Assembly (NCBI GenBank): GCA_003491925.1
Contig: DNAU01000032.1
Coordinates: forward strand, 1-14,402
From: Chloroflexota bacterium
GTDB lineage: Bacteria > Chloroflexota > Dormibacteria > Aeolococcales > Aeolococcaceae
Direction of reading: 5' to 3'
DNA length: 14,402 nt
Shown here: piece after piece, positions 32 through 14,402 of the stretch
Layout of the letters: every line of letters starts with the position of its first letter
How positions within the stretch are numbered: the stretch's first letter is position 1
The notes under the pieces: model-generated
Told to the model about the DNA's origin: nothing
Databases searched by the model: none
Seen by the model: only the letters and a program-made list of their open reading frames with translations
Program-made: the position numbers and the translations under genes

Positions 32-892
32 ATGAAAGCCGCCCTCGCGATCTGCGTGATCGTCCGCGACGAGGCCCCGTACCTGGCCGAGTGGATTGAA
101 TTCCATCGCCTGGTCGGAGTCGAGCGCTTCTTCCTCTACGACGACCGGTCGGAAGACGACACGCTCGCGATCGTCCAGCGGCATTCCCGCGGCGACATTA
201 CGGTCCACCCCTACGACGAGGCCTGGCACTCCGCCCGCTACAATTCGCCGCAGGCCTGCACCTTCAACGACACCCCGCAGGTCTGCGCGTACAACCACTG
301 CGTCCAGAACCACGCCGGCGACGCCCGCTGGTGCGCGTTCATCGACGTCGACGAATACCTTTACCACGAGGACCTCGACGACCTCCGCGTCGCCCTGGGC
401 CGCTACGAGCGGCACGTCGGCGTGTTCGTCCCCTGGCTCATCTTCGGGCGCAACGGCCACGCGACGCGGCCGGCGGGGCTCACGGTCGAGGAATACACCC
501 GCCGCGGGTACCCGGGAGAACCGCTCGGCTACGGCAATCAGGGAAAGCAGATCGCCCGTCTCGATCAGCTCGCCTTCTGGGGGCCCTTCGGCTCGCACAA
601 CGCCGTCTATCACTTCGGCCTGCCGGTGGACTCGTTTGAAGATCCGGTGCCCCGGTTCCACGCCCCGATTTGCCGCCTGAACGCCTTTCGCCTGAACCAC
701 TACTACAACCGCTCGCTGGCCGAGGCCCGCGCCAAGGCCGAGCGCTGCGACCGCAACGCCAAGCCCGGTTTCCAGCCCGACATGCGGCGGATGGACCTCC
801 ACGACCTGAATCACGTCGAGGACCGCGGCATCCTCCGCTTCCTGCCGGCATTGCAGAAGGTGTTAGGTGAGAGGTGTCAGGTATTAGAATGA
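32..892 (+). CDS. Glycosyltransferase, GT92 / Glyco_tranf_2_4-like
   Basis: The 286-residue protein has the features of GT-A-fold glycosyltransferases of the GT92/DUF23-like group: the N-terminal strand with RDE (residues 12-14) and EWIEFH (20-25), LYDDRS near 35-40, a metal-binding DVD inside FIDVDEYLY (DVD at 105-107), and HYYNRS (223-228). It should transfer a sugar from a nucleotide donor; acceptor unknown. There is no signal peptide or membrane segment, so it is probably cytoplasmic. ATG 32 follows GATCCCGCCTCCC with no Shine-Dalgarno sequence. The stop overlaps the next ATG (ATGA, 889-892). The last 10 residues (277-286) are encoded by heptamer repeats at 859-886, so the native C-terminus was probably near residue 276. 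Family call is fairly secure; substrate is not. It may modify the virion or the host surface, or be a passenger gene. Confidence 0.8.
   Translation: MKAALAICVIVRDEAPYLAEWIEFHRLVGVERFFLYDDRSEDDTLAIVQRHSRGDITVHPYDEAWHSARYNSPQACTFNDTPQVCAYNHCVQNHAGDARWCAFIDVDEYLYHEDLDDLRVALGRYERHVGVFVPWLIFGRNGHATRPAGLTVEEYTRRGYPGEPLGYGNQGKQIARLDQLAFWGPFGSHNAVYHFGLPVDSFEDPVPRFHAPICRLNAFRLNHYYNRSLAEARAKAERCDRNAKPGFQPDMRRMDLHDLNHVEDRGILRFLPALQKVLGERCQVLE
859..886. repeat. GGTGTCA-family heptamer array inside a gene 3' end
   Basis: Four consecutive degenerate heptamers (GGTGTTA, GGTGAGA, GGTGTCA, GGTATTA) encode the C-terminal tail of the first glycosyltransferase and end 2 bases before the next ATG. The orientation is the G-rich one, which contains no stop codon in the perfect repeat. 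The opposite-orientation partner seen in other spacers is missing here. Confidence 0.85.
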
Positions 893-1482
893 TCGAACGG
901 CAGTGGCTTGAATCGCACTTCGCCGGCCGCGCGGGCCGCTTCCTGGAGATCGGCGCCTTCGACGGGTTCACCGGCTCGCTGACGTTCGGCCTGATCCAGG
1001 CCGATTGGCGAGGCGTCCTGGTCGAACCCGACCCCCGCGCATTTTGCCGGTTGAAATCGCTCTGGGGCAACGGGACGCCGAACCTCGATCTGGTGAACGC
1101 CGCCGTTGCCGCGCGCGGCGGCCTGAGATGGTTCTACCAGGACGTCGGCGCCGCGGGCGACGGCCAGACGAGCACGCTGGTACCCGAAGTGGCCCAAGGT
1201 TTCGCCGAGCGGCGCGGCGCCCGCTACCGGACCCATTGGACGCACGCCGTCTCCGTAGCCGACCTGCTGGCCTGCTTCGGCACGGACTTCGACCTGGTGG
1301 TGATCGACGCCGAGGGTTTGGACTGGGAGATCCTCTCAGCCATGCCCCTGGCCGCGATGTACGGCACGGAGGTCATCGTCGCCGAGAACCCGGCCGCCGT
1401 CGCCGACCTCCTCGCGCCCTGGTACACCGAGGCGCTTCGCACCCCGGACAACCTGATCGCCGTGCGACGGTCCGACACCTGA
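889..1482 (+). CDS. FkbM-family SAM-dependent methyltransferase
   Basis: The 197-residue protein has the SAM-binding motif I LEIGAFDG (19-26), the acidic end of strand 2 VEPDP (45-49), and the FkbM signature VVIDAEGLDWEIL (137-149), which corresponds to the family's usual K-I-D-x-E-G-x-E stretch. FkbM enzymes typically O-methylate sugars or small molecules, so the partner may be the glycan made by the glycosyltransferase next door. The ATG at 889 overlaps the upstream stop (ATGA), suggesting translational coupling. An in-frame GTG at 874 would add five residues but lies inside a heptamer repeat, so ATG is preferred. At about 200 residues it is compact for the family but all core motifs are present. 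The stop codon TGA (1480-1482) is supplied by a CACCTGA repeat unit, and the final DT residues are repeat-encoded. Confidence 0.82.
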   Translation: MIERQWLESHFAGRAGRFLEIGAFDGFTGSLTFGLIQADWRGVLVEPDPRAFCRLKSLWGNGTPNLDLVNAAVAARGGLRWFYQDVGAAGDGQTSTLVPEVAQGFAERRGARYRTHWTHAVSVADLLACFGTDFDLVVIDAEGLDWEILSAMPLAAMYGTEVIVAENPAAVADLLAPWYTEALRTPDNLIAVRRSDT

Positions 1483-1501
1483 CACCTCTCACCCGACATC
1501 T
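1474..1501. repeat. GACACCT heptamer array, start-proximal orientation
   Basis: Four heptamers (GACACCT twice, CTCACCC, GACATCT) are followed by TCCC and the ATG at 1506. The array begins inside the methyltransferase gene and supplies its stop codon. The stretch closely matches the leader of the tail-tube gene (8011-8040). Confidence 0.85.
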
Positions 1502-1505
1502 TCCC

Positions 1506-2231
1506 ATGCGTCACACGCAATTCCTCGTGTTCGAGATCTCCGACCGTTGCAACCTGGCCGGGCGGCATGCCGGCCGCTGCCCGGTTTCCCTGGCCGACCG
1601 CTACGGCGCGCTCGACACCAGCCGGCCCTTAACCGACGAGCTGATCATCGAGTGCTGCGAGAAAGCGTATCACGAGCTCGGTTTTCAGGGCCGCATCGCC
1701 TGGCACTACTACAACGAGCCCATGCTCTCCTGGGACCGGCTCCGCACGCTCATCCCGCGGATCAAGGCCCGCGTACACGAGGCGACTTTCCTGCTCTGGA
1801 CCAACGGCACGATCTGGCCGGCGAACCTCATGGACCTGGCCGTCTTCCGCGACATCGTGGTCACCGATTACGACGCCCAGGATTTCAAAGCGCTGGTGCA
1901 GGCCCTTCCCGGTACCCGGATCGTGGCCCTCCACCCGGGGCTCGACGACCGGGCCCTCTGCCGCTCGCAGTACGCCGAGGAGCGGTGCCAGCGGATGTTC
2001 ACGGAGCTCATCATCGACCACTACGGCAACGGCCACCTGTGCTGCATGGACTTCCGCGGCGCCTGCCCCCTGGGCAACGTCTGGGACGCCGGTTTCGAGC
2101 AGGTGGTCCTGAACTTCCTGGAGATTCGCGACCTGGTGAGCCGCTATCCGATGTCCGCCGCCGCGCCCCGCGTCTGCCGGTTTTGCACCCACCGCATGGC
2201 CCAAAAGGCCTACTGGGTGCACCTCGACTGA
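1506..2231 (+). CDS. Radical-SAM-like protein with SPASM-type C-terminus, atypical cluster motif
   Basis: The 241-residue protein begins MRHTQFLVFEISDRCNLAG, like the first strand of radical SAM enzymes. WHYYNEPML (67-75) resembles the GGEP region and LLWTNGT (97-103) the TNG strand. Its C-terminal cysteines C161, C179, C180, C187, C224 and C227 fit a SPASM auxiliary iron-sulphur domain. However, the canonical CX3CX2C that binds the SAM-cleaving cluster is absent: C15 is followed by H21 and C25 (C-x5-H-x3-C). It may be a divergent subfamily with a different ligand set, or an inactive homologue. An upstream reading-frame extension to 1005 overlaps the methyltransferase in another frame and is rejected. 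ATG 1506 has a TTCCC context without a Shine-Dalgarno sequence. Natural substrate unknown; peptide or sugar modification is possible. Confidence 0.65.
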   Translation: MRHTQFLVFEISDRCNLAGRHAGRCPVSLADRYGALDTSRPLTDELIIECCEKAYHELGFQGRIAWHYYNEPMLSWDRLRTLIPRIKARVHEATFLLWTNGTIWPANLMDLAVFRDIVVTDYDAQDFKALVQALPGTRIVALHPGLDDRALCRSQYAEERCQRMFTELIIDHYGNGHLCCMDFRGACPLGNVWDAGFEQVVLNFLEIRDLVSRYPMSAAAPRVCRFCTHRMAQKAYWVHLD

Positions 2232-2668: not shown

Positions 2669-2848
2669 TTTCCGACCTACACTCTCTTTATTCGGACGCG
2701 GACCGGTCACGCCACGGCGGGCCGGCCGCTTCCAGTCAGCGGCTCACTCTGAGCCCGATCCGACACGCCACGGCGGCCGGACAGGTTTCAAAGCGCTTGC
2801 TTCCAGCAACCTGATTCCCCCGACCCTTCTTCCCGCGTGGAGCCTCCC
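2669..2848. other. Non-coding spacer before the capsid gene with imperfect direct repeats
   Basis: No credible gene was found in this 180-base stretch. It holds two copies of CACGCCACGGCGG (2708-2720 and 2764-2776), each followed closely by CCGG and further on by GCTTCCAG (2728-2735 and 2799-2806), an imperfect direct repeat with a 56-base offset at its left end. The palindromes GACCGGTC (2701-2708) and AAGCGCTT (2791-2798) also occur. The only AT-rich patch is around 2679-2695. This is the longest spacer in the window and a plausible place for a late promoter or operator, but no convincing -35/-10 pair can be named. Confidence 0.5.
2839..2842 (+). promoter_or_regulatory. Shine-Dalgarno-like GGAG before the major capsid gene
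   Basis: GGAG is separated by CCTCCC (6 bases) from the ATG at 2849, a good distance for a ribosome binding site. It supports ATG 2849 over the in-frame GTG at 2837, which would overlap the site. The tail chaperone gene has the same GGAGCCTC arrangement (8465-8474), while most other genes here have no such site. Confidence 0.5.
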
Positions 2849-4255
2849 ATGGCCAAGAACTGGCGCATCGCCAAGTACCAGGACCGTCGCAACGCCCTGG
2901 TGAAGCAGTCCGAAACGATCCTCGACGCCGCCATGAAGGACGGCGAGCGGGAACCCACCGCGGAGGAGCAGGCCTCCCTCGATGCGAACAAGACCGAGCT
3001 GAAGGCGCTGAGCGAGAAGATCGCCCGCGAGGAGGAGATCGCCGCCTACGTCGCCGAGACGTCCGCCAGTGCCTCGACCGGTTTCGAGACCTCGGCCCCC
3101 GGCCAACCGGCCGAAGGGCGCAGCGTGGCCTCCCGCCAGACCGGCCCCCGCGGCGCCCGCCGCATCGGCCCGGTGCAGGCCGGCTTCGAGCAGGACCCGA
3201 ACTGCGGTTTCGAGCGGCCCCGCGACTTCATCCTCTGCGTGATGCAGCACGGCGATCGCGAGGTCCAGGCCGCGGCCGACCCCCGCCTCCGCTTCCTGGC
3301 CGCCGCCGGCAGCGACGAGCAGGGCGCCTACGCCGATCCCTACGGCGGCTTCCTGATCCCGCTGGGGTTTCACCCGGAGCTGATGGCCCTGACGCCCGAG
3401 GATGACCCGGTCGGCGCGGCCACCACCAAGGTGCCGATGGAGGTCCCCAAGGTCGAGATCCCGGCCAGGACCGACAAGGACCATTCCACCGGCTCCGTCA
3501 CCGGCGGACTCTTGGTCACCCGCCGGGCCGAGACCCAGAGCCAGCAGGCCACCCGCATGCAAATGGAGCGCGTGGCCCTGATGGCCACCAGCCTCTTCGG
3601 CCTGGCCTACGCCACCGAGGAACTGCTGGCCGACTCGCCCACGAGCTTCGCGGCCCTCCTGGCCCAGGGGTTCAAGGACCAGTTCACCGCTCACCTCTTG
3701 AACGAGCGGCTCTTCGGCACGGGCGTCGGCGAGTTCGAGGGCGTCATGAACGCCCCCTGCCTCGTGACGGTGGCCAAGGACTCGAACCAGACGGCCAAGA
3801 CGATCAGCTACACGAACGTCATCAACATGCGGAGCCGCTGTTACCGCTACCAGAAGGCCGTCTGGCTCTATAACCATGACTGCCTCCCGCAGCTCATGCA
3901 GTTGTACTTCAGTCCGGCCGGCGCCACCAACGCCCTGGCGGTGCCGGTGTGGCAGGCCTCGCTCCGCGACGGCGAACCCGAACGGCTCTTGGGCCGCCCC
4001 GCCTACCCGACCGAATTCTGCCAGACCTTGGGCACGACCGGGGACCTGATCCTCGGCACCTGGGACGAGTACCTCGAGGGGACCTACGAGCCCCTGAACT
4101 CGGCCGAGAGCATCCACGTCCGCTTCGTCAACCACGAGCGTACGTTCAAGTTCTGGCTCCGCAACGCCGGCAAGTGCTGGTGGAGGACACCGCTCACGCC
4201 GCGGCGCTCGGCCAGCACGCTCTCCCCGTTCCTGGCCCTGGCCACGCGGTCGTAA
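2849..4255 (+). CDS. Major capsid protein, HK97 fold
   Basis: The 468-residue protein has the layout of HK97-type capsid proteins: an N-terminal charged coiled-coil delta domain (about residues 10-70, with a low-complexity linker to about 110), then DPYGGFLIP (163-171), YATEELLADS (254-263), the E-loop/A-domain region with NERLFGTGVGEFEGVM (285-300), the loop ERLLGRPAYPTEF (378-390), GDLILGTWDEYL (398-409), and SPFLALATR at the C-terminus. It would assemble the icosahedral shell, with the delta domain acting as scaffold and being removed by a prohead protease. No protease gene lies in this window. ATG 2849 is chosen because GGAG sits 6 bases upstream. The basic end (about 444-468) is not obviously a frameshift artefact. 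Confidence 0.93.
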   Translation: MAKNWRIAKYQDRRNALVKQSETILDAAMKDGEREPTAEEQASLDANKTELKALSEKIAREEEIAAYVAETSASASTGFETSAPGQPAEGRSVASRQTGPRGARRIGPVQAGFEQDPNCGFERPRDFILCVMQHGDREVQAAADPRLRFLAAAGSDEQGAYADPYGGFLIPLGFHPELMALTPEDDPVGAATTKVPMEVPKVEIPARTDKDHSTGSVTGGLLVTRRAETQSQQATRMQMERVALMATSLFGLAYATEELLADSPTSFAALLAQGFKDQFTAHLLNERLFGTGVGEFEGVMNAPCLVTVAKDSNQTAKTISYTNVINMRSRCYRYQKAVWLYNHDCLPQLMQLYFSPAGATNALAVPVWQASLRDGEPERLLGRPAYPTEFCQTLGTTGDLILGTWDEYLEGTYEPLNSAESIHVRFVNHERTFKFWLRNAGKCWWRTPLTPRRSASTLSPFLALATRS

Positions 4256-4267
4256 GCTCGGTTCGCC

Positions 4268-4353
4268 GTCAGTCGTCAGTGGTCGGTTGTCACTCGCAAC
4301 GGGCCAGGGACGACGGACCACGGGCCCCTATCCCCCTGACCCCCGACCCCTCT
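4268..4353. repeat. Bipartite heptamer array (GTCAGTC-type, then GACGACG/CCCCTGA-type)
   Basis: GTCAGTC, GTCAGTG, GTCGGTT and GTCACTC form a clean period-7 run (4268-4295). After GCAACGGGCCAG come GACGACG and GACCACG (4309-4322), then C-rich heptamers CCCCTGA, CCCCCGA, CCCCTCT (4333-4353). Two repeat families meet in one spacer, as if two arrays had recombined. The next ATG is 16 bases downstream. Confidence 0.75.
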
Positions 4354-4864: not shown

Positions 4865-4942
4865 AGTGTCGGGTGAGAGGTGTCAGGTGTCGGCCTGCAC
4901 CGTCTGACGCCTGACCCCTGGCACCTGACACCTTCCGCACCC
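4865..4942. repeat. Bipartite inverted heptamer array (GGTGTCA / CACCTGA)
   Basis: The 5' arm (4865-4892) is AGTGTCG, GGTGAGA, GGTGTCA, GGTGTCG. The loop is GCCTGCAC (4893-4900). The 3' arm (4901-4942) is CGTCTGA, CGCCTGA, CCCCTGG, CACCTGA, CACCTTC, CGCACCC, followed by one C and the ATG. The loop GCCTGCACC recurs in the last array of the window (14357-14365), so the two spacers are related beyond the heptamers. Confidence 0.85.
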
Positions 4943-4943: not shown

Positions 4944-5774
4944 ATGCACATCCTCCAGCCCGATGCCCGCAAGCAGATCGTCCTGGGCTTCCCCAGCCCG
5001 GGCGGCGCGTGCATGTCCTACGAGACCGCGCGGGCCCTGTACCGGGGCACGCAACGGCACGATCTGGCCCTCCTGCTCTCCGTGGGGAGCTGGGACGGTT
5101 TCAACAACCTGTGGGCCAGCGCCCTGAACCTGGCCGAGGCCGGCCAGGCCACGCATTTCGCGATGCTCCATGCGGACATCGCGCCGGAGGAGGGCTGGCT
5201 CGATCTGCTGGCCGACGAGCTCGACCGGCTCGGGGCGGACCTGGTTAGCGTGGCGGTGCCCCTGAAAGACGGCCGCGGCGTCACCAGCTCCGGGATCGGC
5301 GACCCGGCCGACCCGTGGCACCCGTATCGCCGGTTCACGGTGCGAGAGCTTTTCGACTCGAGCCTGCCGGAAACGTTTTCGGCGGCCGACGCGGGCCATC
5401 CCGGCGGGATCTTCCTCCACAACGACGGCTGCTGGATGTGCGACCTCCGCCAGGAGGCCTTCCGCAGCACGGATGCGGAAGGGCGCCTCATCGCCGATTT
5501 CCACTTCCCCCGCGAGGTGTTCCGCGACGGAGCCGACGGGAAGTTCAAGGTCCGCGCCGAGTCGGAGGACTGGTATTTCTCCAGAAAACTGCACGAGCTG
5601 GGCATCAAGAGCTACATCACCCGCAAGGTCCGCCTGACCCACGCCGGCGGCTACGCCTTTTCGAACGTCCTGCCCTGGGGCACCTACCGGCACGACCTCG
5701 ATACGCCGGGCGGCAAGGCCCTGGAGGAGGCGGCCGTTGCCCGCGGTCAGTTGTCCGTTACGACCGACAATTGA
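4944..5774 (+). CDS. Glycosyltransferase-like protein (GT-A/GT2-like), inserted in the head module
   Basis: The 276-residue protein resembles GT2-type enzymes: an N-terminal strand IVLGFPSPG (12-20), FAMLHADIAPEEGWLDLL (72-89) where LHAD stands in place of the usual DxD, GADLVSVAVPLKDGRG (97-112), and ESEDWYFSRKLHELG (206-220), whose ED is the usual catalytic-base motif. LTHAGG (231-236) resembles a C-terminal metal or acceptor contact. It lies between the decoration gene and the connector gene, so it is probably a cargo gene rather than a core head component. The last nine residues (268-276) and the stop (TGA 5772-5774) come from heptamer repeats. The ATG context is CACCCCATG with no Shine-Dalgarno sequence. 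The sugar and acceptor are unknown. Confidence 0.68.
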   Translation: MHILQPDARKQIVLGFPSPGGACMSYETARALYRGTQRHDLALLLSVGSWDGFNNLWASALNLAEAGQATHFAMLHADIAPEEGWLDLLADELDRLGADLVSVAVPLKDGRGVTSSGIGDPADPWHPYRRFTVRELFDSSLPETFSAADAGHPGGIFLHNDGCWMCDLRQEAFRSTDAEGRLIADFHFPREVFRDGADGKFKVRAESEDWYFSRKLHELGIKSYITRKVRLTHAGGYAFSNVLPWGTYRHDLDTPGGKALEEAAVARGQLSVTTDN

Positions 5775-5793
5775 CGACCGACAACTGACCACC
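5746..5793. repeat. Bipartite heptamer array (GTCAGTT / GACAACT)
   Basis: GTCAGTT and GTCCGTT (5746-5759) are followed almost at once by GACAATT, GACGACC, GACAACT and GACCACC (5766-5793), then G and the ATG. The first part and the stop codon of the preceding glycosyltransferase gene lie inside this array. GTCAGTTGTC (5746-5755) is the exact complement of GACAACTGAC (5780-5789). Confidence 0.85.
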
Positions 5794-5794
5794 G

Positions 5795-6448: not shown

Positions 6449-6455
6449 AGAACGG

Positions 6456-6518
6456 GGGATTAGGGACTGGGGATTAGGGATTGGCCTCTCTAATCCCCAA
6501 TCCCCAATCCCCAATCCC
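6456..6518. repeat. Long inverted heptamer repeat forming a 28-bp hairpin (GGGATTA / CAATCCC)
   Basis: Four heptamers GGGATTA, GGGACTG, GGGATTA, GGGATTG (6456-6483) face four heptamers TAATCCC, CAATCCC, CAATCCC, CAATCCC (6491-6518) across a 7-base loop GCCTCTC. By hand pairing the arms form 28 pairs with three A-C or C-A mismatches and one G-U. No T-run follows, so it does not look like a standard intrinsic terminator. The ATG of the head-closure gene is 4 bases downstream. Confidence 0.9.
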
Positions 6519-6522
6519 TCCT

Positions 6523-6864
6523 ATGCTCTACCGCCTCGACGCCGGCCGGCTCCGCCACCGCGTGAGCGTCCAGGCCCCGCAGCTCAGCACGCCGGGCCAA
6601 ATGGGCGACGCGGCCGAAGTGTTTCAAACGATCGAGGGCCTCTCGATGGTCCCGGCCGAGATCGAGTGGCTCGACGGCCGCAAGCTGTTGGCGGCCCAGC
6701 AGGTCCACGCCGAGGCCACCGTAACCGTCCTCGTGCGGTTCGACCCGCGGATCACCCAGAAGTGCCGCCTCCTGACGGACAACGGCCACACGCTCTATCC
6801 GGTCGCCTCGACGCCCGACACCCTGGAGCGGTGGATAACGCTGAGCTGCAAGGAGCATCCCTAG
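6523..6864 (+). CDS. Phage head closure protein (Phage_H_T_join / gp7-like)
   Basis: The 113-residue protein has the features of small head-closure proteins (SPP1 gp16 / HK97 gp7 group): GRLRHRVSVQAPQ at the N-terminus (8-20), AEIEWLDGRKLLAAQQVHAEATVTVLVRFDPRI (45-77) corresponding to the family's x-V-x-x-L-x-G-x-E and R-Y-x-x-x-I positions, CRLLTDNGHTLYPVASTPD (81-99) and a C-terminal ERWITLSCKE strand. It would close the head-tail channel beneath the gp6-like ring. The chosen ATG (6523) comes just after the CAATCCC array; an in-frame TTG at 6481 would add 14 repeat-encoded residues and is rejected. The stop TAG shares its G with the first unit of the next heptamer array. Confidence 0.85.
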   Translation: MLYRLDAGRLRHRVSVQAPQLSTPGQMGDAAEVFQTIEGLSMVPAEIEWLDGRKLLAAQQVHAEATVTVLVRFDPRITQKCRLLTDNGHTLYPVASTPDTLERWITLSCKEHP

Positions 6865-6911
6865 TCGGTTGTCCGTGGTCCGTTGCAGACAACTGACGAC
6901 TGACGACTGAC
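6864..6911. repeat. Bipartite inverted heptamer array (GTCGGTT / GACGACT)
   Basis: GTCGGTT, GTCCGTG, GTCCGTT (6864-6884), a GCA link, then GACAACT, GACGACT, GACGACT and GAC directly touching the ATG at 6912. GTCGGTTGTC (6864-6873) can pair with GACAACTGAC (6888-6897), with one G-U. The array fills the whole spacer, leaving no room for a ribosome binding site. Confidence 0.9.
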
Positions 6912-7445
6912 ATGTCCGCCGTTTCCTTCACCGTCCACGGCCTCGACGAGCTGAAGAGGTTCCTCGAAAAATTCCCGGGGCAGCTCTCGACGAAGATCGT
7001 CCGCCAGGCCTTGCACGACGCGGCGAAAGTCGGCGTCCGGAGCCTGAAGGCCGAGGCCCGGGAGCACGACGGCCGCGGCGAGATCCGCGTGAACATGCGG
7101 ACCCTGAAGCGGCGGATCGCGCACCTGAGCGATTCGGCCGTCGCGGTCACCCGGCACTACGCCAACGGGATCGAGTACACGGCGGTCGGCTTCGAGTGGC
7201 CCTTGGGCGCGGCCGGCTGGCTCGTCGAGCACGGCCACCGCATGGTGGTCGGCGGCACGGTCGCCCGCATCGCCGGCCGGGCCCCGAAGGCCGACAACAG
7301 GACCCTGACCGGCGCCGGCCGCGTAGTCGGCTTCGTGAAACCGCACCCCATCGCCCTGCCGGCCTTCGAGAAGTGCCGGGCGGCGATGGACGAAGCCTTC
7401 GAAGCGGCCGTGCGAGACGGCGTCGAGGAAAACGCCGCCGGATAG
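6912..7445 (+). CDS. HK97 gp10-like tail completion / neck protein
   Basis: The 177-residue protein starts with VHGLDELKRFLEKFPGQLSTKIVRQALHDAAKVGVRSLKAEA, the typical G-L-x-E-L motif and first helices of the HK97 gp10 family. In the second half, GWLVEHGHRMVVGG (102-115), GRAPKA and VGFVKPHPIALPAFEKC (139-155) match the family's E-x-G-H and H-P-x-x-x-P-A-F positions. The protein completes the head-tail joint. Gene order (gp6-like, head closure, gp10-like, terminator-like) is canonical. The ATG at 6912 directly abuts a GACGACT repeat array. The stop TAG overlaps the first G of the following repeat. Confidence 0.87.
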   Translation: MSAVSFTVHGLDELKRFLEKFPGQLSTKIVRQALHDAAKVGVRSLKAEAREHDGRGEIRVNMRTLKRRIAHLSDSAVAVTRHYANGIEYTAVGFEWPLGAAGWLVEHGHRMVVGGTVARIAGRAPKADNRTLTGAGRVVGFVKPHPIALPAFEKCRAAMDEAFEAAVRDGVEENAAG

Positions 7446-7502
7446 TCGTCAGTCGTCACTTGTCGGCTGCAACTGACGACCGGCCACTGAGCACTGAGGA
7501 CT
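7445..7502. repeat. Bipartite inverted heptamer array (GTCGTCA / GACGACC)
   Basis: GTCGTCA, GTCGTCA, CTTGTCG (7445-7465), a short GCTGCAACT link, then GACGACC, GGCCACT, GAGCACT, GAGGACT (7475-7502), CG and the ATG at 7505. The last unit has drifted to GAGGA (7496-7500), which could act as a Shine-Dalgarno sequence for the next gene. Confidence 0.85.
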
Positions 7503-7504
7503 CG

Positions 7505-7963: not shown

Positions 7964-7976
7964 TCCGACCGATCAT

Positions 7977-8007
7977 CCCCGGGACGCGGTCCCGGGGCTT
8001 TGGCCCC
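7977..8007 (+). terminator. Strong hairpin(s) before the tail-tube gene; possible terminator or attenuator
   Basis: CCCCGGGAC (7977-7985) pairs perfectly with GTCCCGGGG (7989-7997) across a 3-base GCG loop. GGGGC (7994-7998) could instead pair with GCCCC (8003-8007) across TTTG, so the two hairpins are mutually exclusive. No run of T follows, so this is not a classic Rho-independent terminator. It could regulate or stabilise the tail-tube transcript, or be a dispersed palindromic repeat. Confidence 0.4.
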
Positions 8008-8038
8008 TGACACCTGACACCTCTTACCCGGCACCTTC
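8004..8038. repeat. CACCTGA heptamer array, start-proximal
   Basis: CCCCTGA, CACCTGA, CACCTCT, TACCCGG, CACCTTC, then CC and the ATG at 8041. It closely resembles the leader of the radical-SAM-like gene (1475-1505). The 5' inverted partner is missing here and the GC-rich hairpin 7977-7997 takes its place. Confidence 0.8.
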
Positions 8039-8040
8039 CC

Positions 8041-8415: not shown

Positions 8416-8420
8416 TGCCG

Positions 8421-8458
8421 GTTGTCAACTGACAACTGACAACGGACGACGGACATAA
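8421..8458. repeat. GACAACT heptamer array with short hairpin
   Basis: GTTGTC (8421-8426), AACT, GACAACT, GACAACG, GACGACG, GACATAA (8431-8458). GTTGTC pairs with GACAAC (8431-8436) across a 4-base loop. Sixteen further bases, including GGAG, precede the ATG at 8475. Confidence 0.8.
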
Positions 8459-8474: not shown

Positions 8475-8912
8475 ATGTCCCTGCGCGATTCGCTGCTCGC
8501 CACCCGCAACGCCGCCGACGTCCCCTTGACGCCGGCCCCGCCCACGCCCGAGTGGCCGGCCGTCGACGGCCGGCTCTTCCTGGGCACGCTGTCCGAGGCG
8601 GACCTCGGCAGCATCTCCAGTTCCGGCGCGGGCCAGGAGGCCGACGAGGGCCTTTTTCGCGCGGGACTGGTCTGCAAGGTCTTGCGGGACGCCAACGCCA
8701 ACCGGGTCCTGCAGGACTCCGACGCCCCGGCCATGGCCGCCAAGGAAACCCTCGTCATGGAGCGGCTGTATCACGCCGCGCGTGAGGCCAACGGGCTGAC
8801 GGAGGAGAACCGCCGCGGTTTTTTGCCGACTGCCGCGAGCACGGCCCAAAATGGTTCGCCCACCTCCTCGCCCGCACCGTCGGCCGCACCGCCGACGTCG
8901 ACCGGTTCCTGA
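8475..8912 (+). CDS. Tail assembly chaperone, short form (gpG analogue)
   Basis: The 145-residue protein is the zero-frame product. Residues 27-109 (WPAVDGRLFLGTLSEADLGSI onwards, then FRAGLVCKVLRDANANRVLQDSDAPAMA and TLVMERLYHAAREANGLTEENRRG) are the mixed helical part expected of gpG-like chaperones; the last 28 residues after the slip site (118-145) are Ala/Ser/Pro/Thr-rich low complexity and look unselected. Gene position between the tail-tube and tape-measure genes (one gene removed) is right for gpG. The identification rests on that position and on the -1 frameshift architecture rather than on strong sequence similarity. It would help fold and align the tape measure protein during tail assembly. 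Confidence 0.72.
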   Translation: MSLRDSLLATRNAADVPLTPAPPTPEWPAVDGRLFLGTLSEADLGSISSSGAGQEADEGLFRAGLVCKVLRDANANRVLQDSDAPAMAAKETLVMERLYHAAREANGLTEENRRGFLPTAASTAQNGSPTSSPAPSAAPPTSTGS

Positions 8913-9202
8913 GAGAGATCCCGGCCGGGCAGTTCCGGCGGTGGAAGGACCTGTACGACCTCGAGCCCTGGGGCGAAGAGCGGACCGATTTCGCGATCGG
9001 CACGCTCATCATGCACCTGGCCGCGTTGCACGGGGTCGATCCCCGCGAGCCGGTCGAGTACATGCACTACCTCCGCGCGGCGCAGCCGCCGAAGCCCTTC
9101 CTCCCCGAAGACCGGGTCCTCGCCTTCTTCGAGGAGCTCTGCGAGCTGATGAAACCCAAAGAGGCGGTGTCGCCGGCCCCGCGCCCGGCTTCTAGCACCT
9201 GA
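8475..9202 (+). CDS. Tail assembly chaperone, frameshifted long form (gpG-T analogue)
   Basis: A -1 slip at TTTTTTG (8819-8825) joins the gpG reading frame to a second frame that continues to TGA at 9200-9202. By hand count the fusion is 242 residues: codons 1-117 in frame 0, then 125 codons in the -1 frame starting at 8825 (ADCREHGPKWFAHLL...). The second-frame part contains regular helices and acidic patches (DRFLREIPAGQFRRWKDLY, DFAIGTLIMHLAALHG, REPVEYMHYLRAAQ, RVLAFFEELCELMK), clearly protein-like, without its own credible start at the junction. This is the lambda gpG/gpG-T arrangement known across siphoviruses and their relatives. The stop codon belongs to a CACCTGA repeat unit. The last residues (ASST) partly derive from repeats. 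Confidence 0.82.
8801..8845 (+). promoter_or_regulatory. Programmed -1 frameshift signal
   Basis: The slippery heptamer TTTTTTG (8819-8825) is in the right phase, with zero-frame codons GGT TTT TTG, so P- and A-site tRNAs can re-pair one base back. GGAGGAG (8801-8807) lies 11 bases upstream, close to the spacing of the stimulatory internal Shine-Dalgarno in E. coli dnaX. Downstream, GCCG (8825-8828) with TGC (8831-8833) can pair with the stretch 8839-8845 as a small bulged stem, but this begins at the last slippery base and may be too close; a perfect 6-bp stem (8879-8884 with 8891-8896) is further away. Confidence 0.75.
9169..9195. repeat. 27-bp perfect repeat, copy 1 (3' end of chaperone gene)
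   Basis: This 27-bp stretch (GTCGCCGG ... CGGCTTCTAG) is identical to 14303-14329 at the end of the tape measure gene. Here it is read as SPAPRPAS; there it is read one frame away as VAGPAPGF plus the stop TAG. Both copies are directly followed by heptamer repeats. Confidence 0.92.
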
Positions 9203-9230
9203 CACCTGACACCTAGCACCTGACACCTCC
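9196..9230. repeat. CACCTGA heptamer array, start-proximal
   Basis: CACCTGA, CACCTGA, CACCTAG, CACCTGA, CACCTCC, then C and the ATG at 9232. The first unit supplies the stop of the frameshifted chaperone. The array fills the whole 29-base spacer, so no Shine-Dalgarno sequence can be present. The same CACCTAG/CACCTGA alternation recurs at 14373-14400. Confidence 0.9.
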
Positions 9231-9231: not shown

Positions 9232-12192
9232 ATGTCCAACCCCTACGACCCGCAAGACTACTTCTGGTCCCTGTGGGACAACGGCACCTACGATTGCGAC
9301 TCGGCCCCCACCGCGTCGGGCTTCGCCACGGCGGGCTGCAAGCAGGGGCGGTTCTACGTCAAGCGGGCCGGCACGGGCGACACGAATTGGGCCTGGGCCC
9401 ATAAGAACGGTTCGAGCCAGCAACAGCGGCACTTGAAATTCACCTCGGGCGGCTCACCCAACAACAGCTTCGACCTCTTCCCGTACTGCGATGCCTCGGG
9501 AAACCCGCTCACCGTGTTTCCCTACGCGGGCACCTTCCTGCTCGCCCGATTCAAGCTCGCGCCCACCACGCACAATATCCAGTTCTACCTGACGGGCCTG
9601 CTGAACCCCGGGCTCTTCTTCGGCGCCCTGGGCGTCAGTTCGACGGCCCGCGCCTTTTATTGCCAGGACAACGCCCTGGGCGCCGGCGGCGAGGGCTGGG
9701 GCCAGGGGGGCGGCACGACGGCCGTCCCGCCGTGGCCGCAGCTCGATCTCGACACCACCACCTTCCGCGACGTCATCGGCATCAACGTCTGCCAGGTCCT
9801 CCGCGCCGTGGATTACGCGGGGACCGATCCGCGCAACCCGCTGGGCACGCCGGCGGTCCTGTGCGAAACCTGGATCCAGGCCCCGCCGATCGTCTTCGGC
9901 TGCACCTGTCCCACCGACGGCGCCAAGTGGTGGTGCCTGGCCGCCAAGTGGGTCCACAACGCCAACCTCGGCGCCTCGCAGAGCTCGCCGGGCACGGCGG
10001 CGATCAACGCCGAGATCGACCTCGGCCAGTACACCCTGACCGACACGCTGGTCAACACGACCTACCTCTACGAGGTGCGTTTCGGCATCGGCACGTTCGA
10101 TCCGGCCGCCGAGGGCTCGGGCATCCGCGCGTTGCCGCTGAGCTCGATCACCTATGCCTCCGGCTCCCTGATCCACTACTTCGGCCCCGACGTGGCGCAG
10201 CTCCCCGGCGGCCGCCTGATCTACGCCAGCGAGCAGACTTACGGCACCAGCTACGTCGAGCGGTGCTGCGAGGTGGCCCTGTCCGGCGGGGCCGTGGACA
10301 ACGTCGCCGCCGCCGCGCCGGTCCTGAACGACTGGACCTTCCAGCAGCCCGACGGCGCGGGCGTGGCCTTTTTCAAGGACACGGGGTCGCCGGGCGGTGC
10401 GATCGCCGGCAACGGCAACTATTACTCCGGCCGCGTCCTCCTCGATCCCGTCCGCGCGGCGGCCGGCCAGCCGAGCCTGCTGGTGGTCTCCACCCGCGGA
10501 TTCGGGGGCGAGGCCGGCAGCAATACCGCCTGGTGCGAGATGGCCGCCCGCGTGGGCACGATCGGCGGCTCGGGCACCACGGTCACCTGGGGCGCGGAGC
10601 AGTCCTCGAAGACCGGCAAGACGCCCGTCAAGGCCTACACCTGCGCCGGCGACTTCGCCGCGGATTACCCCACCGCCAACAACCTCTACGCCCAGACGAG
10701 CTACAGTTGCCCGGTCCTGACCCAGGGCAACGCCGCCGGCATGTGGCTCGTGCCGTGGACGATCTACGTCTACCAGGGCGCGTCGAACCTGGCCTGCCCG
10801 CTCGTCCTGACCTGGAGCGCGAATGCCGGCGCCGCATGGAGCTCCCAGAAATGGGACTTCACCGCCGCCGACGCCGACGGCAATACCGGCTGGGGCGAGG
10901 TCTCCGCGTCGGAGATCAGCCCCGATTCCTCGGGCAACTCCCGCGTAATGCTCTTCCTGCGGACGAACACCTACCTCCGCACCCTGATCCTCACCTGGAG
11001 CCCCACCGCCAACGGCTGGACGAGTTCCCTGGGGGCCACGCCCGCCAACCTGCAGGCCGCCACCGTCCAGCACGCCGGCGCCGTGAGCACCAAGGCCGAA
11101 GTCGTGTTCGCCGGCGGCCCGATCTGCTCGCTGCCGAACCTCGTCAACGGCCGCCTCTTCCTCCTCGTCGATGCGATGAACGAGTGGGAATACAGCGATC
11201 CGATGGACACCCGCGGCCGCCCGGCGCTCTACTACTGCGACGACGCCGGCTCGACGGCCAATCCCGGCGGCACCTGGCACCTCGACGCCAGGTCCCCGCT
11301 CTGGCAGGGCTACAACGCGTACCAGGCCGCCTTTGACGGCGCGCCGGCGATCCGCAGCGACGGCGAGGGCGGCCTGCTGGCCTGCCTCTTCCCCCAGAAC
11401 ACGGCCTGGCAGTTCCTGGTCCGCGAGCCCTTCTTTTTCGCCAAGGAAACGGCCTTGAACCTGGCCGCGCCGGGCAAGGTCGCCCTCGGCACCAACCGCG
11501 GCGATATGGTTTTGGGGACGCGGACGGATTGCCCCGCCGCCGACGCCCTGGCGGGCACCTCCTACGGCGACCCGGGCGCGCCGATCATCGGCAGCGGCCC
11601 GCAGTTCTACCCGTCGACCTACGACGTGCGGCTCGGCGTCAATCGCGGCGACGGCAACTCGGGCACCTGCGTCGTGCCCGCGGCCGCCGACGTGCGGCAC
11701 GCCGTCGCCGTCGACCATACCTTCGGCCAATGCTATGTCCCGCCGGCCGACAGTGTCTTGGTGGGAGTCCAGGTCGACGACAATTCGATGGGCTCCCTGG
11801 GCCTCGTCCAATTGGCGGACCTCCTGCCCATCGACCCGAACTCCGGCGCCATGACCCTGACCGTGGGCGACGACTACACCTCGAACACCGGCCAGGTCCT
11901 GCCGTTCTCCGACCCGGGCAACTGGCCGAACCTCTCCGCCAACGGCACCACCCTGACGCTCTACGTCCGCAACGCCGCCGGCCCGCAGTTGACGGTCACC
12001 GGCTCCCTGGTGGCCAACAGCAGCCCGCAAGAGATCGTCTTCCAGCCGCTCCACGCCAACACGGCTACGATGGCCGCCAGCAGCACGCTCGGCGACAACC
12101 GCTACGCCGTCGAGGCCGACCTGCCCGGCGGCCTGGTCCGCACGCTCCTCGACGACCTGCCCTGCACCGTGCGGCTCGGCCGGGCCCAGTAG
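9232..12192 (+). CDS. Large virion protein: probable tail adhesin / receptor-binding protein, beta-propeller-like with C-terminal repeats
   Basis: The 986-residue protein is rich in G, A, W, Y, T and N with little charge, like extracellular beta-structured virion proteins. Residues 1-740 contain blade-like repeats: PGGRLIYAS (325-333), PSLLVVSTRGFGGEAGSNTAW (414-434), LVLTWSANAGAAW (524-536, an Asp-box-like S-x-N-x-G-x-x-W) and NGRLFLLVDAMNEWEYSD (639-656); a sialidase-like propeller is possible but not proven. Residues about 749-855 hold tandem D-V-R-x-G-V repeats. Residues 864-986 (MTLTVGDDYTS ... VRLGRAQ) resemble a BppU-N or Ig-like domain of baseplate proteins. The cysteine count is high for a phage protein. 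It lies between the chaperone and the tape measure, an unusual place. Glycan binding or hydrolysis is inference. Confidence 0.6.
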   Translation: MSNPYDPQDYFWSLWDNGTYDCDSAPTASGFATAGCKQGRFYVKRAGTGDTNWAWAHKNGSSQQQRHLKFTSGGSPNNSFDLFPYCDASGNPLTVFPYAGTFLLARFKLAPTTHNIQFYLTGLLNPGLFFGALGVSSTARAFYCQDNALGAGGEGWGQGGGTTAVPPWPQLDLDTTTFRDVIGINVCQVLRAVDYAGTDPRNPLGTPAVLCETWIQAPPIVFGCTCPTDGAKWWCLAAKWVHNANLGASQSSPGTAAINAEIDLGQYTLTDTLVNTTYLYEVRFGIGTFDPAAEGSGIRALPLSSITYASGSLIHYFGPDVAQLPGGRLIYASEQTYGTSYVERCCEVALSGGAVDNVAAAAPVLNDWTFQQPDGAGVAFFKDTGSPGGAIAGNGNYYSGRVLLDPVRAAAGQPSLLVVSTRGFGGEAGSNTAWCEMAARVGTIGGSGTTVTWGAEQSSKTGKTPVKAYTCAGDFAADYPTANNLYAQTSYSCPVLTQGNAAGMWLVPWTIYVYQGASNLACPLVLTWSANAGAAWSSQKWDFTAADADGNTGWGEVSASEISPDSSGNSRVMLFLRTNTYLRTLILTWSPTANGWTSSLGATPANLQAATVQHAGAVSTKAEVVFAGGPICSLPNLVNGRLFLLVDAMNEWEYSDPMDTRGRPALYYCDDAGSTANPGGTWHLDARSPLWQGYNAYQAAFDGAPAIRSDGEGGLLACLFPQNTAWQFLVREPFFFAKETALNLAAPGKVALGTNRGDMVLGTRTDCPAADALAGTSYGDPGAPIIGSGPQFYPSTYDVRLGVNRGDGNSGTCVVPAAADVRHAVAVDHTFGQCYVPPADSVLVGVQVDDNSMGSLGLVQLADLLPIDPNSGAMTLTVGDDYTSNTGQVLPFSDPGNWPNLSANGTTLTLYVRNAAGPQLTVTGSLVANSSPQEIVFQPLHANTATMAASSTLGDNRYAVEADLPGGLVRTLLDDLPCTVRLGRAQ

Positions 12193-12291
12193 GTGAGAGG
12201 TGTCAGGCGTCAGGTGTCAGGTCTGATGCCGCCGGACTGTAGCCGTTGGCTATGTTTTCCCGACACCTGACACCCAGCACCTGACACCTGC
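12192..12291. repeat. Bipartite inverted heptamer array (GGTGTCA / CACCTGA)
   Basis: GGTGAGA, GGTGTCA, GGCGTCA, GGTGTCA, GGTCTGA (12192-12226) begin with the G of the TAG stop. After about 37 bases of other sequence, CACCTGA, CACCCAG, CACCTGA, CACCTGC (12264-12291) follow in the opposite orientation, then C and the ATG at 12293. Confidence 0.9.
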
Positions 12292-12292
12292 C

Positions 12293-14329
12293 ATGTCCGA
12301 CGCCGTAGCAAAATTGCGCTGGGACCTTCTGGCCGACGTGGCCGGCTTCACCGGCCCGCTCGAGCAGGGTGGCGCCGCCGTCGAAAAAATGGCCGCCCGC
12401 TTCGATCGGGCCTTCGACTCGATCCGGCAGTCCGCCGCGCGGGCGAGCCGCGAGCAGGAGGCCTGGTCCAAGTCGATGCAGGGCGAAGGCTCTTTCTTCG
12501 CCAGCTCGCAGACCGCCGGCGGCGAGACCTCGTCTAGCCGCCACCGCGGCCGCCTGGCCGACCAACTCGGTCTGGGGCAGTCCGCCCGGATCGAGCTCAC
12601 CCGCGAGGCGGCGCAAACGGCCGCGACGATCGGGGACGTGAAGAAGAAGGTTGCGGGCGAACTCGAAAAGGCCGTCACCGAGCTGGGGGAGAAGGCCGGC
12701 CTGGGGGGAATCTTCGGCGGCGCGGCCAAGTTCGTCAATGGAAATCCGCTCCTGGCCCTGGGCACCCTGGCCGCCGGCGGATACATCGAGCACGAGCGGG
12801 AGAGGCGGAATTACGTCCGCGAGGTCGGCCACGCCGCGGAGGCCTGGGGAGAGGGCACCCGCGGCGCAAGCCAGCTTTTGGGCGCGGGCGTCAGCGAGGA
12901 GATGGGCAGCCACTTTCAAAGGGCTGTTGCCGAGCCGAACGCCGTGTTCGGCGAAATGGGCCTCGACGCCGCGAAGCTCCGCGCCGAGCCCCTGAAGGAT
13001 GCGATGCTCGAAGTGGCCGACGCCTTCGGCAAGGTCCAGAACCCGACCGATCGCGCAAAGATGGCCGTCGAGCTGTTCGGCAAGGCGGGCGACGAGATGA
13101 TCCCCGCGCTCTCACACCTCCGGCAGAACATGGACGCCCTGGCCGAGTCGAAGCTCGTCACCGCGCTCGAGCGGGCCGAGATCGCCGCCAACGACGCCGC
13201 GTTCAAGGGCATGATGGACAGCCTCTCGGGCCTCGGGCACGCCGCCGCCGGCGGCGTCGGGTCGAGCGCGGGCCTGACCGGTACCCTCTATCGCGGTTGG
13301 GGCATGGCCGCGGACCTCCTGCACGGCGAGAACCCCTTCACGGCCGAGAAGGAGGGCCGCCGCCGCCAGCAGGATTACCGCGTCGAGCATGCGGATGAAT
13401 ACGAGGCCGCTCTCCTGGCCCAGCAGAAGCTCGACGCCGCCACGCGGGCCGACGCCCAGGCCCTCCAGGCGCAGGCCGAGGCCGTCGAGCGGGCCACCGC
13501 GGACATGAAGGCCATGGAGTCTTCGGCCTTCCAGGCGCGGGCGAACTGGGCCAACGCCGACGACCGGGGCCGCCCGGCGGACCTCGCCGGCGAGCAGCGA
13601 TACATCGATGCCGCCAAAGCGACCGGCCGCACCGGCACGCAGGTCCAGGAAGGACTCCTCCTGATGCGCCAACAGCGCCGGGAGGGTTCCGAGATCCAGG
13701 GGGCCTGGTCCCTCTTCGGCCAGTCCCAGACGGCCGCCGAGCGGCTCGCCGAGGGCGAACGGAACGCGGAGACCTACTGGCAATACTCCGACAAGGGGGA
13801 CGCCGCCAGGGACAAGTGGAGCCGCATGGACCGCCAGGTCGCCCGGAACTATTGGGCCGAGATGGGATTCGGCACGCCCCTCCAGAACGAGGCCGAGCGG
13901 CACGCGGCCGCGCTGGCGAAGATCGCCGAGGCCCAGCCCCAGGACGCCGCCCGCCGCCGCGAGGCCGAGGACCTGACCCACCGCCAGAACCTCGGCATCA
14001 AGGACTGGGCCGCCGATTTCAAGAAGTCCATGAGCGACCTCGAGGCCTCCCGCAAGGACTTTACTCCGGAGCAGTTCGCCAAGCGGGAGAAGGACCTCCG
14101 CCGTCAGGCCCTGGGCGAGGCCACCGCCGACGTCCAGACCGTCTCGCCCGTTGCCGCCATGGCCGCCGGCAGCCGCGAGGCCTACTCGATGATGGTCCAG
14201 TCTCAACTGAACGACCCCAAGACGCAGCTCGCCCGCCAGGCGAACCAGAAACTCGCGGACATCGAAAAGGCCGTCCGCGAGTCGGCCGTGAAAAACCCGA
14301 TCGTCGCCGGCCCCGCGCCCGGCTTCTAG
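12293..14329 (+). CDS. Tail tape measure protein
   Basis: The 678-residue protein has the tape-measure pattern: a charged N-terminal helix with repeated A/R/E (to about 130), a hydrophobic glycine-rich part with NPLLALGTLAAGGYIEHE (151-168), the conserved block VQNPTDRAKMAVELFGKAGDEMIPAL (248-273; V-E-L-F-G-K-A-G-D-E-M-I-P-A-L is a hallmark), a second Gly/Ala segment (314-345), and a long Ala/Glu/Arg/Gln-rich coiled coil (about 350-610). AAMAAGSREAYSMMVQSQ (621-638) is a typical end region. It sets tail length; with the usual about 0.15 nm per residue it predicts roughly 100 nm. It follows the large adhesin gene. ATG follows CACCTGCC without a Shine-Dalgarno sequence. The end of the gene (14303-14329) is the second copy of the 27-bp repeat. 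Confidence 0.9.
   Translation: MSDAVAKLRWDLLADVAGFTGPLEQGGAAVEKMAARFDRAFDSIRQSAARASREQEAWSKSMQGEGSFFASSQTAGGETSSSRHRGRLADQLGLGQSARIELTREAAQTAATIGDVKKKVAGELEKAVTELGEKAGLGGIFGGAAKFVNGNPLLALGTLAAGGYIEHERERRNYVREVGHAAEAWGEGTRGASQLLGAGVSEEMGSHFQRAVAEPNAVFGEMGLDAAKLRAEPLKDAMLEVADAFGKVQNPTDRAKMAVELFGKAGDEMIPALSHLRQNMDALAESKLVTALERAEIAANDAAFKGMMDSLSGLGHAAAGGVGSSAGLTGTLYRGWGMAADLLHGENPFTAEKEGRRRQQDYRVEHADEYEAALLAQQKLDAATRADAQALQAQAEAVERATADMKAMESSAFQARANWANADDRGRPADLAGEQRYIDAAKATGRTGTQVQEGLLLMRQQRREGSEIQGAWSLFGQSQTAAERLAEGERNAETYWQYSDKGDAARDKWSRMDRQVARNYWAEMGFGTPLQNEAERHAAALAKIAEAQPQDAARRREAEDLTHRQNLGIKDWAADFKKSMSDLEASRKDFTPEQFAKREKDLRRQALGEATADVQTVSPVAAMAAGSREAYSMMVQSQLNDPKTQLARQANQKLADIEKAVRESAVKNPIVAGPAPGF
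14303..14329. repeat. 27-bp perfect repeat, copy 2 (3' end of tape measure gene)
   Basis: Identical in all 27 bases to 9169-9195, and again directly followed by heptamer repeats, but read in a different frame. The final G of the repeat is also the first base of the following GGTGTCA array. Confidence 0.92.
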
Positions 14330-14402
14330 GTGTCAGGTGAGAGGTGTCAGGTGTCAGCCTGCACCCTCCTGACACCTAGCACCTGACACCTAGCACCTGA
14401 CA
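14329..14402. repeat. Bipartite inverted heptamer array at window end
   Basis: GGTGTCA, GGTGAGA, GGTGTCA, GGTGTCA (14329-14356), a loop GCCTGCACC (14357-14365), then CTCCTGA, CACCTAG, CACCTGA, CACCTAG, CACCTGA (14366-14400), where the window ends. Most likely a further gene starts just beyond, as in the other spacers. The loop is shared with the array at 4865-4942. Confidence 0.85.

Follow-up and report, generated by a model that had tools for sequence, protein, structure and literature searches.

The DNA described here is a stretch of 14,402 nucleotides (the window) that forms positions 1-14402 of C88, a 27,151-bp contig in a fragmented genome bin (G000) assigned to the Chloroflexota. The window carries a phage head-tail gene cluster (capsid, head-tail adaptor, head closure, neck, tail terminator, tail chaperone and tape measure), and its gene boundaries hold arrays of degenerate heptamers, which are the subject of this report. 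The cluster had been recognized in an earlier reading made from the letters alone (the sequence-only reading) and is confirmed by the major capsid protein gene (2837-4255, forward strand; PF05065, E = 1e-22; phrog_10), which was also our query for related viruses. Two gene pairs in the window overlap, at 889-892 and 8851-8912.

Terminase, portal and maturation protease genes lie on C221, the other phage contig in the bin. Two virus contigs from other metagenomes (L034 and L035) span the passage from C221 to C88 at 99.7-100% identity, and two more (L176 and L177) start at the right end of C88 (100% and 96.8% identity) and reach the other end of C221 by a path that bridges ~400 nucleotides present in neither contig. 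Because these sequences join both contigs, C88 and C221 are parts of one phage genome, circular or permuted, of ~42 kb. An integrase gene is located at 24915-25976 of C88.

The spacers of the window carry a sharply defined repeat period. Identity at a lag of 7 nucleotides is 0.516 in spacers versus 0.269 in coding sequence, and there is no signal beside lag 7, as evident by spacer identities of 0.25-0.283 at lags 5, 6, 8, 9 and 10. The number of lag-7 matches in the spacers (519 of 1007) lies far above that of dinucleotide shuffles (mean 276.9, standard deviation 14.6, maximum 325, n = 1000), and 12 of the 15 non-coding stretches of at least 15 nucleotides individually reach p <= 0.01 in the lag-7 shuffle test. 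These values bear out the proposal of the sequence-only reading that heptamers occupy nearly every spacer, and its three repeat families are likewise recovered, as GGTGTCA/TGACACC, GTYGTCA/TGACRAC and GGGGATT/AATCCCC. Among the three stretches that fail the test, 1483-1505 (p = 0.172) nonetheless holds a visible short array, and 2232-2263 (p = 0.541) holds none. The third, 1-31, is a glycosyltransferase junction with a 10-mer repeat (GATCCGACC) that is not of the heptamer type, continues across the end of C221 and recurs on C221. Beyond the window, where genes were called by a simple codon-usage caller written for this analysis and small genes were missed, the region 17200-24900 of C88 is rich in arrays, which belong to additional families (GTGGTCA, GCAGTGG and GGGGATT), and contains few genes that could be called with confidence.

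Period-7 repeats cover 4.4% of 41,208 nucleotides in the phage, versus 0.00% of 38,397 nucleotides in five other contigs of the bin (G+C fraction 0.708) and 0.00% of 184,761 nucleotides in a selection of 12 distant capsid relatives. A retrieved bin stretch consisting entirely of N was omitted from these coverage values and from hairpin counts. Base composition therefore does not explain the period, and an equal density was found in neither the shuffles nor these two sets. The pattern GKYGTCAGKYGTCA, which represents two of the three families, has 23 matches in the 2.65 Mb bin, all 23 on C88 and C221, and none in six genomes of the same genus. Within the bin, the matches are thus confined to the phage; the sequence-only reading had asked whether the repeats are restricted to the prophage or shared with host spacers. 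Of 60 relatives of the bin that were searched, 23 have one or two GKYGTCAGKYGTCA matches, but these are near background, since a reversed control pattern matches in 7 of 61 genomes. The GGGGAYT family is found in the spacer at 6449-6522 and, on C88 and C221 together, at five other places.

Pairing of arrays into hairpins

A frequent layout, absent from the earlier description, is an inverted pair in which a G-rich array follows a stop codon and its reverse complement precedes the next start codon. We folded the 12 array-bearing spacers of the window; below, p refers to the lag-7 shuffle test, z compares each fold with 200 shuffles, and all features are on the forward strand. Six spacers beat all 200 shuffles (z <= -4.7) and a seventh beats all but 3; outside the top six, z ranges from -2.84 to +1.36. 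Hairpins with GGTGTCA arms are located at 4866-4934 (p = 0.001, z = -4.92), at 12190-12292 between the gene for a 986-amino-acid protein and the tape-measure gene (p = 0.001, z = -5.82, inverted repeat 12198-12289), and at 14326-14402 on the right edge of the window (p = 0.001, z = -6.15, inverted repeat 14326-14393). The tip of the first, GGCCTGCACC, is like that of the last. The hairpin at 5745-5794 has GTCAGTTGTCC arms and provides the TGA stop of the upstream gene (p = 0.009 for 5775-5794, z = -4.77), that at 6455-6519 has GGGGATT and AATCCCC arms (p = 0.001, z = -5.33, inverted repeat 6456-6518), and that at 6862-6911, with GTTGTCC and GACGACT arms, fills its spacer from stop codon to start codon (p = 0.001, z = -4.70).

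Other arrays pair less well or stand alone. At 2555-2668, a G-rich arm (2555-2571) and a C-rich arm (2639-2668) are separated by a long tip (p = 0.002 for the spacer 2555-2836, z = -2.84). Weak folds characterize the paired GTCGTCA and ACTGACGAC arrays at 7443-7504 (p = 0.001, z = -1.56) and the paired GTTGTCA and TGACAAC arrays at 8416-8457 (p = 0.001, z = -1.96). The GTCAGTC and GACGACG arrays at 4268-4352, which are followed by a CCCCTGA array, show non-significant pairing (p = 0.001, z = -0.67). Solitary C-rich arrays are found at 8003-8030 (CCTGACACCTGACACC, before a start codon; p = 0.004 for the spacer 7964-8040, z = -0.74) and at 9193-9228 (CACCTGACACC, from stop to start), the latter forming no fold (p = 0.001, minimum free energy 0, z = +1.36). 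The FkbM gene is flanked by a related arrangement, recognized in the sequence itself: a G-rich array (GGTGTTA GGTGAGA GGTGTCA) at 859-887 forms the 3' end of the glycosyltransferase gene that precedes it and contains a recurrent 16-mer (GGTGAGAGGTGTCAGG), and a C-rich array (CACCTGACACCTCTCACC) at 1474-1500 provides the TGA stop of the FkbM gene (p = 0.172 for the 1483-1505 part). The unit order at 1474-1500 is an inverted copy of that at 859-887.

A strict gapless search returns only 3 inverted pairs within the window. Pairing was also computed between the two halves of 54 spacers (52 distinct) from seven contigs (C88, 16; C221, 2; L038, 12; L039, 7; L040, 7; L152, 6; L043, 4), and the halves of the same spacer pair at a mean of -25.2 kcal/mol. 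Swapped arms reach a mean of -15.3 kcal/mol (standard deviation 0.92), or -18.0 kcal/mol (standard deviation 1.1) when swapped within a genome, and in each case none of 5000 permutations is as low as the native pairing. This set leaves out spacers that are shorter than 20 or longer than 200 nucleotides, contain N, or lack flanking genes both on the forward strand; L042 gave none.

The G-rich arm is 5' in all 42 period-7/8 inverted repeats of the virus sets, a count that includes one terminase hairpin three times (L038, L039 and L152). In bacterial stretches, 9 such repeats have a G-rich 5' arm, 3 have a C-rich one and 1 is tied. Since a palindrome keeps its G-rich 5' arm on either strand, this polarity is a property of the element and not of gene direction. 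The arms of period-7/8 phage hairpins span 18-52 nucleotides.

More familiar identities for these hairpins were considered and set aside. Only one terminator-like site (a stem plus a T run) was found, off the arrays, versus 7.0 expected, so the arrays are not intrinsic terminators. No Rfam family matches at gathering score in the window, L008, L009, L038 or L039. Inverted repeats carried by each gene as its own pair are also not indicated, because by eye the families match within spacers and not across genes, with the FkbM gene as the exception.

Contents of equivalent sites in related viruses

Period-7 repeats cover 2.2-8.4% of the sequence in ten of 57 capsid-related virus loci (L033-L042, six of which are contigs of the window's own phage), 0.6-0.8% in four (L043, L044, L050 and L058) and none of it in the other 43. 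No period-7/8 hairpin occurs in 243,782 nucleotides of 18 distant relatives that share the capsid type. The most informative pair is L038 and L039, which come from one metagenome and whose capsid proteins are 72-73% identical to that of the window and 91% identical to each other. Their junctions are mostly unlike, with GGAGTTA hairpins in one and GTTGTCA or GGGGATT in the other. Seven sites were compared (two junctions of differing gene content were excluded): TerL-g5 is 98% identical, and the other six, including an intragenic one, cannot be aligned as homologs, while the ten genes that flank the sites are 82-96% identical. In nine of these ten genes the last 90 nucleotides diverge somewhat more than the gene mean; the first 90 do not.

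Individual junctions exhibit the same variability. After the capsid gene, C88 has a GTCAGTC array, L038 a CCGCGGAT palindrome, and L040 a CCTGACA array alone. Genes 10 and 11 overlap in L040, are separated by 59 nucleotides with paired arrays in C88 (7443-7504), and by 67 nucleotides with a hairpin in L038. Thus, a junction shared by C88, L038 and L040 may be empty in one of them and in another contain a single arm, a pair of heptamer arrays or a palindrome with a different sequence. Palindromes without a period (CCGCGGAT.., CACGGATGAAACACGGAT.. and CCAAGAACC..) are located at L038 10252-10312, L039 8922-8997 and L040 3025-3181, where they fill junctions that hold heptamer arrays in relatives. 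Among relatives with 82-96% identical genes, a given site frequently holds a different heptamer, octamer or non-periodic hairpin.

Hairpins also reside inside genes. The terminase genes of L038, L039 and L152 carry an in-frame insert of ~30 residues with 8-mer arms that is absent from C221 and five further relatives, and the C221 terminase has its own GTCAGTG-type pair near the C-terminus. At one site in a glycosyltransferase gene, L038 has a GGAGACAA-type 8-mer pair and L039 a GTCAGTT-type 7-mer pair. The inserts span 115 and 118 nucleotides, respectively, between matching blocks, are both open in frame, and are absent from two homologs at 28-30% identity (L183 was not part of this alignment). 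The statement of the sequence-only reading that genes are clean of repeats except at their 3' ends therefore holds within the window, but not for the rest of the phage and its relatives.

One arm sequence is dispersed. Nine of the ten GGTGAGA occurrences in the phage, counted on either strand, are followed by GGTGTCAGG. This 16-mer is present in 14 IMG/VR stretches: 12 from seven contigs of the window's phage, one from L186 and one from L191. None of the other 399 genomes searched in the bin's phylum contains it. In the parts compared, L186 and L191 have no nucleotide similarity to the phage; by tblastn, L186 yields only a terminase match at 26-28% and L191 (5,682 of 21,218 nucleotides compared) yields none. 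The spacer architecture of L191 is like that of the phage, with GGTGTCA and TTCTTGG pairs. A period-7/8 hairpin is also present in 5 of 27 unrelated viral contigs picked for a GGTGTCA run. BLAST searches of plasmids (three hairpins) and phages (one hairpin), which are limited by the low-complexity filter, returned only a 30-nucleotide match in two Streptomyces plasmids.

In the stretches compared, the arrays do not change in length between close strains. When C88 stretches of up to 12.75 kb are set against five strain contigs (diverged by at most 0.6%), there are no array indels of the type expected from slippage resembling phase variation, and the one indel, of 6 nucleotides, lies in a coding stretch. 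Relative to C88, L033 has 0 substitutions in 522 array nucleotides and 72 in 11,762 coding nucleotides, and L041 has 2 in 474 and 62 in 10,160, although the two are not independent because they are 99.93% identical to each other; the remaining three contigs have 0 array and 0-7 coding substitutions. The indel comparison covers the C88 side, and the C221 side of the strain contigs shows a few gaps by blastn. Together, the dispersed 16-mer and the absence of array indels among strains suggest that elements are acquired and exchanged as wholes, with hardly any slippage of single units. Strain contig L033 matches C88 at 99.4% identity through the 12.75 kb that follow the FkbM region, but in place of the FkbM gene and the arrays on either side of it L033 has a different gene, with no array before it. 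This replacing gene (L033 3172-3999, opposite window 889-1482) looks radical-SAM-like by eye, and the gene it displaces encodes an FkbM methyltransferase.

The host of the phage was also sought. Neither C88 nor C221 has host flanks or a tie to the bin chromosome, and both may be mis-binned, in which case the bin is perhaps not the true host. For C88 and C221 the G+C fraction is 0.68-0.69; five further contigs of the bin give 0.71. A search for prophage relatives in 400 genomes of the bin's phylum gave 8 capsid matches, namely the window itself and others at <=35% identity. A capsid scan of genome contigs confirmed 1 of 13 candidates, which is 42% identical and lies in a Chitinivibrionales bin, and the relatives among named phages, 11 records, are every one below 60% identity. 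None of these routes yielded a host. The pattern GGTGTCAGGTGTCAGG occurs in 20 of 400 genomes of the phylum, including the bin itself, with up to 69 matches in one. In G303 it has 12 matches, and the ten listed are all on one contig. The first 20 kb of this contig (L171, G303:C158:1-20000) has heptamer arrays over 5.75% of its sequence, several inside called open reading frames. It resembles a defence island, with matches to a helicase with an MrfA-type zinc-binding domain, a UvrD-like helicase and a methylase.

Possible origins of the arrays

The explanation that we favor, with a probability of about 0.5, is that each array is one arm of a small palindromic insertion element, and that these elements survive where they are harmless, rather than being designed operon punctuation. 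Its observed basis is pairing in many spacers, arm copies at nine places, tight or empty sites in relatives, in-frame presence in two genes, and families that differ between relatives at one and the same site. In a full element, degenerate 7-mers (sometimes 8-mers) would make up a G-rich 5' arm, followed by a variable tip and a reverse-complement 3' arm, and some copies would have lost one arm. Such elements might be miniature and non-autonomous, with a host or phage activity copying them in trans, or might spread by fold-back copying during replication. Selection would then leave them only at stop/start junctions and in tolerant protein linkers. The phage probably exchanges elements with a heptamer-rich host and with that host's other viruses, and recombination between relatives may move hairpins as well. 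The sequence-only reading had pictured a structural operon with boundaries built of repeats, a description better replaced by insertion elements that sit at junctions and also in frame within genes.

Several observations weigh against insertion elements. No transposase, target duplication or intermediate was found, and the Y1 transposases (RAYT, PF01797) of comparable systems are absent from the bin, which is 71% complete and perhaps not the host, and from seven viral records. Not every array pairs, as evident by z values above -2 in 5 of the 12 folded window spacers. Within its genome, an arm's own partner ranks first in 13 of 54 spacers and in some ranks last. A test of unit order in the arms of 43 hairpins gives a mild excess of identical positions (1143 versus 1074 of 1338), and insertion does not explain why the G-rich arm is so consistently 5'. 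The glycosyltransferase inserts of L038 and L039, being of different families and near-equal length (115 and 118 nucleotides), look more like products of in-place conversion or recombination than of insertion, and the diverged 3' gene ends of these two viruses would fit recombination that reaches into genes.

The main rival is a role at the RNA level, in processing or stability. The arrays would be selected intercistronic RNA hairpins that are cut by a double-strand ribonuclease, or that protect or insulate cistrons on a long mRNA, and arm sequences would be free to change because pairing alone matters. There is precedent in phage T7, where RNase III cuts between the early genes. Consistent with such a role, pairing is kept while sequence differs among relatives, arms of 18-52 nucleotides give fold z values down to -6.15, several arms adjoin stop and start codons, and intrinsic terminators are absent at arrays (1 found, 7.0 expected). 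Because many pairs fold as hairpins, the processing or stability role named in the sequence-only reading is possible. However, relatives lack hairpins at some junctions, and at one junction of L040 the genes overlap; some junctions have a lone unpaired arm; the 18 distant relatives of the same capsid type (243,782 nucleotides) have no period-7/8 hairpins at all; and the in-frame copies within genes separate no cistrons. We hold selected RNA hairpins to be a tentative explanation, distinctly short of probable. Another proposal is that a host or phage activity places period-7/8 palindromes whose 5' arm is G-rich at gene junctions and later overwrites them there with new unit sequences, so that pairing and, inside genes, the reading frame are kept. 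If this were true, the joint change of both arms at one site between relatives with ~90%-identical flanks would be a signature of templated fold-back synthesis, although we judge such an activity to be unlikely.

Passive slippage in heptamer-prone DNA, with fold-back template switching to generate the inverted copies, would require neither an element nor a function. The period of 7 (and 8) and the degenerate units suit this idea, and heptamers are described as the most abundant long class of simple repeats in most surveyed genomes, with slippage proposed as their source (Mrazek 2007, as cited in PMC4679880). Contrary to it, no unit is gained or lost between C88 stretches and the five strain contigs, a single 16-mer has nine copies in the phage and also occurs in two other viruses, and near-identical strains are stable while relatives with 82-96% identical genes hold other families; slippage alone is quite improbable. 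The arrays might instead be recombination joints for the exchange of gene modules, as the sequence-only reading had suggested. C88 and L033 (99.4% identical elsewhere) differ by a gene that in C88 has arrays at its borders, the arms on either side of the FkbM gene are inverted relative to each other and share one unit order, and the 3' ends of 9 of 10 L038 and L039 genes are slightly above mean divergence. The swap in L033 lends the idea weak support, but with arrays at almost all junctions a gene swap of any kind would have an array close to its ends, and such a coincidence is expected. Moreover, six of the seven L038 and L039 sites changed while the flanking genes did not, in-frame copies border no module, and the array is missing before the replacing gene in L033. 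We consider recombination joints to be very unlikely.

Relation to known repeats

The cyanobacterial short tandemly repeated repetitive (STRR) sequences, which Mazel reportedly described in 1990, are said to comprise STRR1 (CCCCART) and STRR2 (TTGTCAG) on the host chromosome, and we presume these to be two of the phage's families. Hairpin pairing is not known to be a defining feature of STRR sequences. The likeness to them that the sequence-only reading had drawn is supported: the phage arrays are tandem, degenerate, intergenic 7-nucleotide units, and GGGGAYT is a known unit. The spread across a bacterial chromosome typical of such repeats is not seen in the bin, where all 23 GKYGTCAGKYGTCA matches are on the phage contigs, although the host may differ. 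The GGGNATC heptamers of Xanthomonas and Nostoc are described as chromosomal, preferably between aligned genes, with the G-rich strand within 50 nucleotides after a stop codon or antisense before a start codon (Rehm 2015, PMC4692102). In the available text of that work they are studied as G-quadruplex-forming arrays for which four units are preferred, and inverted-repeat stem-loops are named as a possibility only. Nostoc GGGGA(C/T)T corresponds to the family at 6455-6519, and GGGNATC arrays too vary in sequence and length among related organisms (PMC4692102). Compared with that description, the present case combines several families in one phage, many inverted pairs, differences at one site between relatives, and in-frame copies. 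TAACTGA repeats are reported from Beggiatoaceae, Cyanobacteria and Bacteroidetes, patchily across phyla (MacGregor 2015, PMC4679880), as direct repeats of one unit with an inverted case in 1 of 170 sets. Their unit is near the AACTGAC arms of the phage and matches them in orientation beside start codons, but pairing with an array after the upstream stop is not among the features described in the available text (PMC4679880). TAACTGA itself has no occurrence on either strand of C88 or C221.

Rickettsia palindromic elements form ten families in bacterial chromosomes and are not known to be built of tandem 7-mers. They are summarised as ~150-bp sequences that lie in frame in protein genes (Ogata 2000, in PMC10969869). 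As far as that summary describes them, the terminase and glycosyltransferase inserts of the related phages are similarly palindromic, in frame and absent from homologs; unlike them, the inserts have tandem 7/8-mer arms and reside in phages. REPINs (hairpins formed by two repetitive extragenic palindromic, or REP, sequences), which are associated with RAYT transposases, are presented as an inverted pair with extragenic dispersal and as a proposed mobile unit (PMC3116915). A hairpin-type inverted pair is formed by about half of the window arrays, but the REPIN arm is described as one conserved REP whereas the phage arm is a tandem array (PMC3116915). Geobacter metallireducens has tandem 7-/8-mer runs paired on opposite strands at variable distance, in two chromosomal classes of 16 to 48 sequences each that are read as regulator-binding sites; unlike the phage arrays, replacement of one family by another is not part of the account available (PMC2700814). 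The tandem repeats of Borgs likewise occupy spacers and genes of an extrachromosomal element and are virtually absent from its host, but they are reported as direct and A-enriched, with hairpins predicted for some only (PMC9879509). A scattered heptamer satellite is reported for Chloroflexus aurantiacus (PMC6749651). In the literature searched, as far as its text was available, we found no report of heptamer hairpins in phages, nor of their combination with differing families at fixed sites; the separate traits are known from other systems.

The origin of heptamer arrays is not agreed, although such arrays have been known for a long time from cyanobacteria, Xanthomonas and giant sulfur bacteria. 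Compact phage genomes with orthologous junctions reveal empty, occupied and differently occupied states, both between and inside genes. These states suggest that what comes and goes at a site is in many cases an inverted pair as a unit, with a sequence that changes more rapidly than the adjacent genes. A caution follows that such hairpins need not be regulatory, and the origin of heptamer repeats becomes testable through the comparison of close phage strains.

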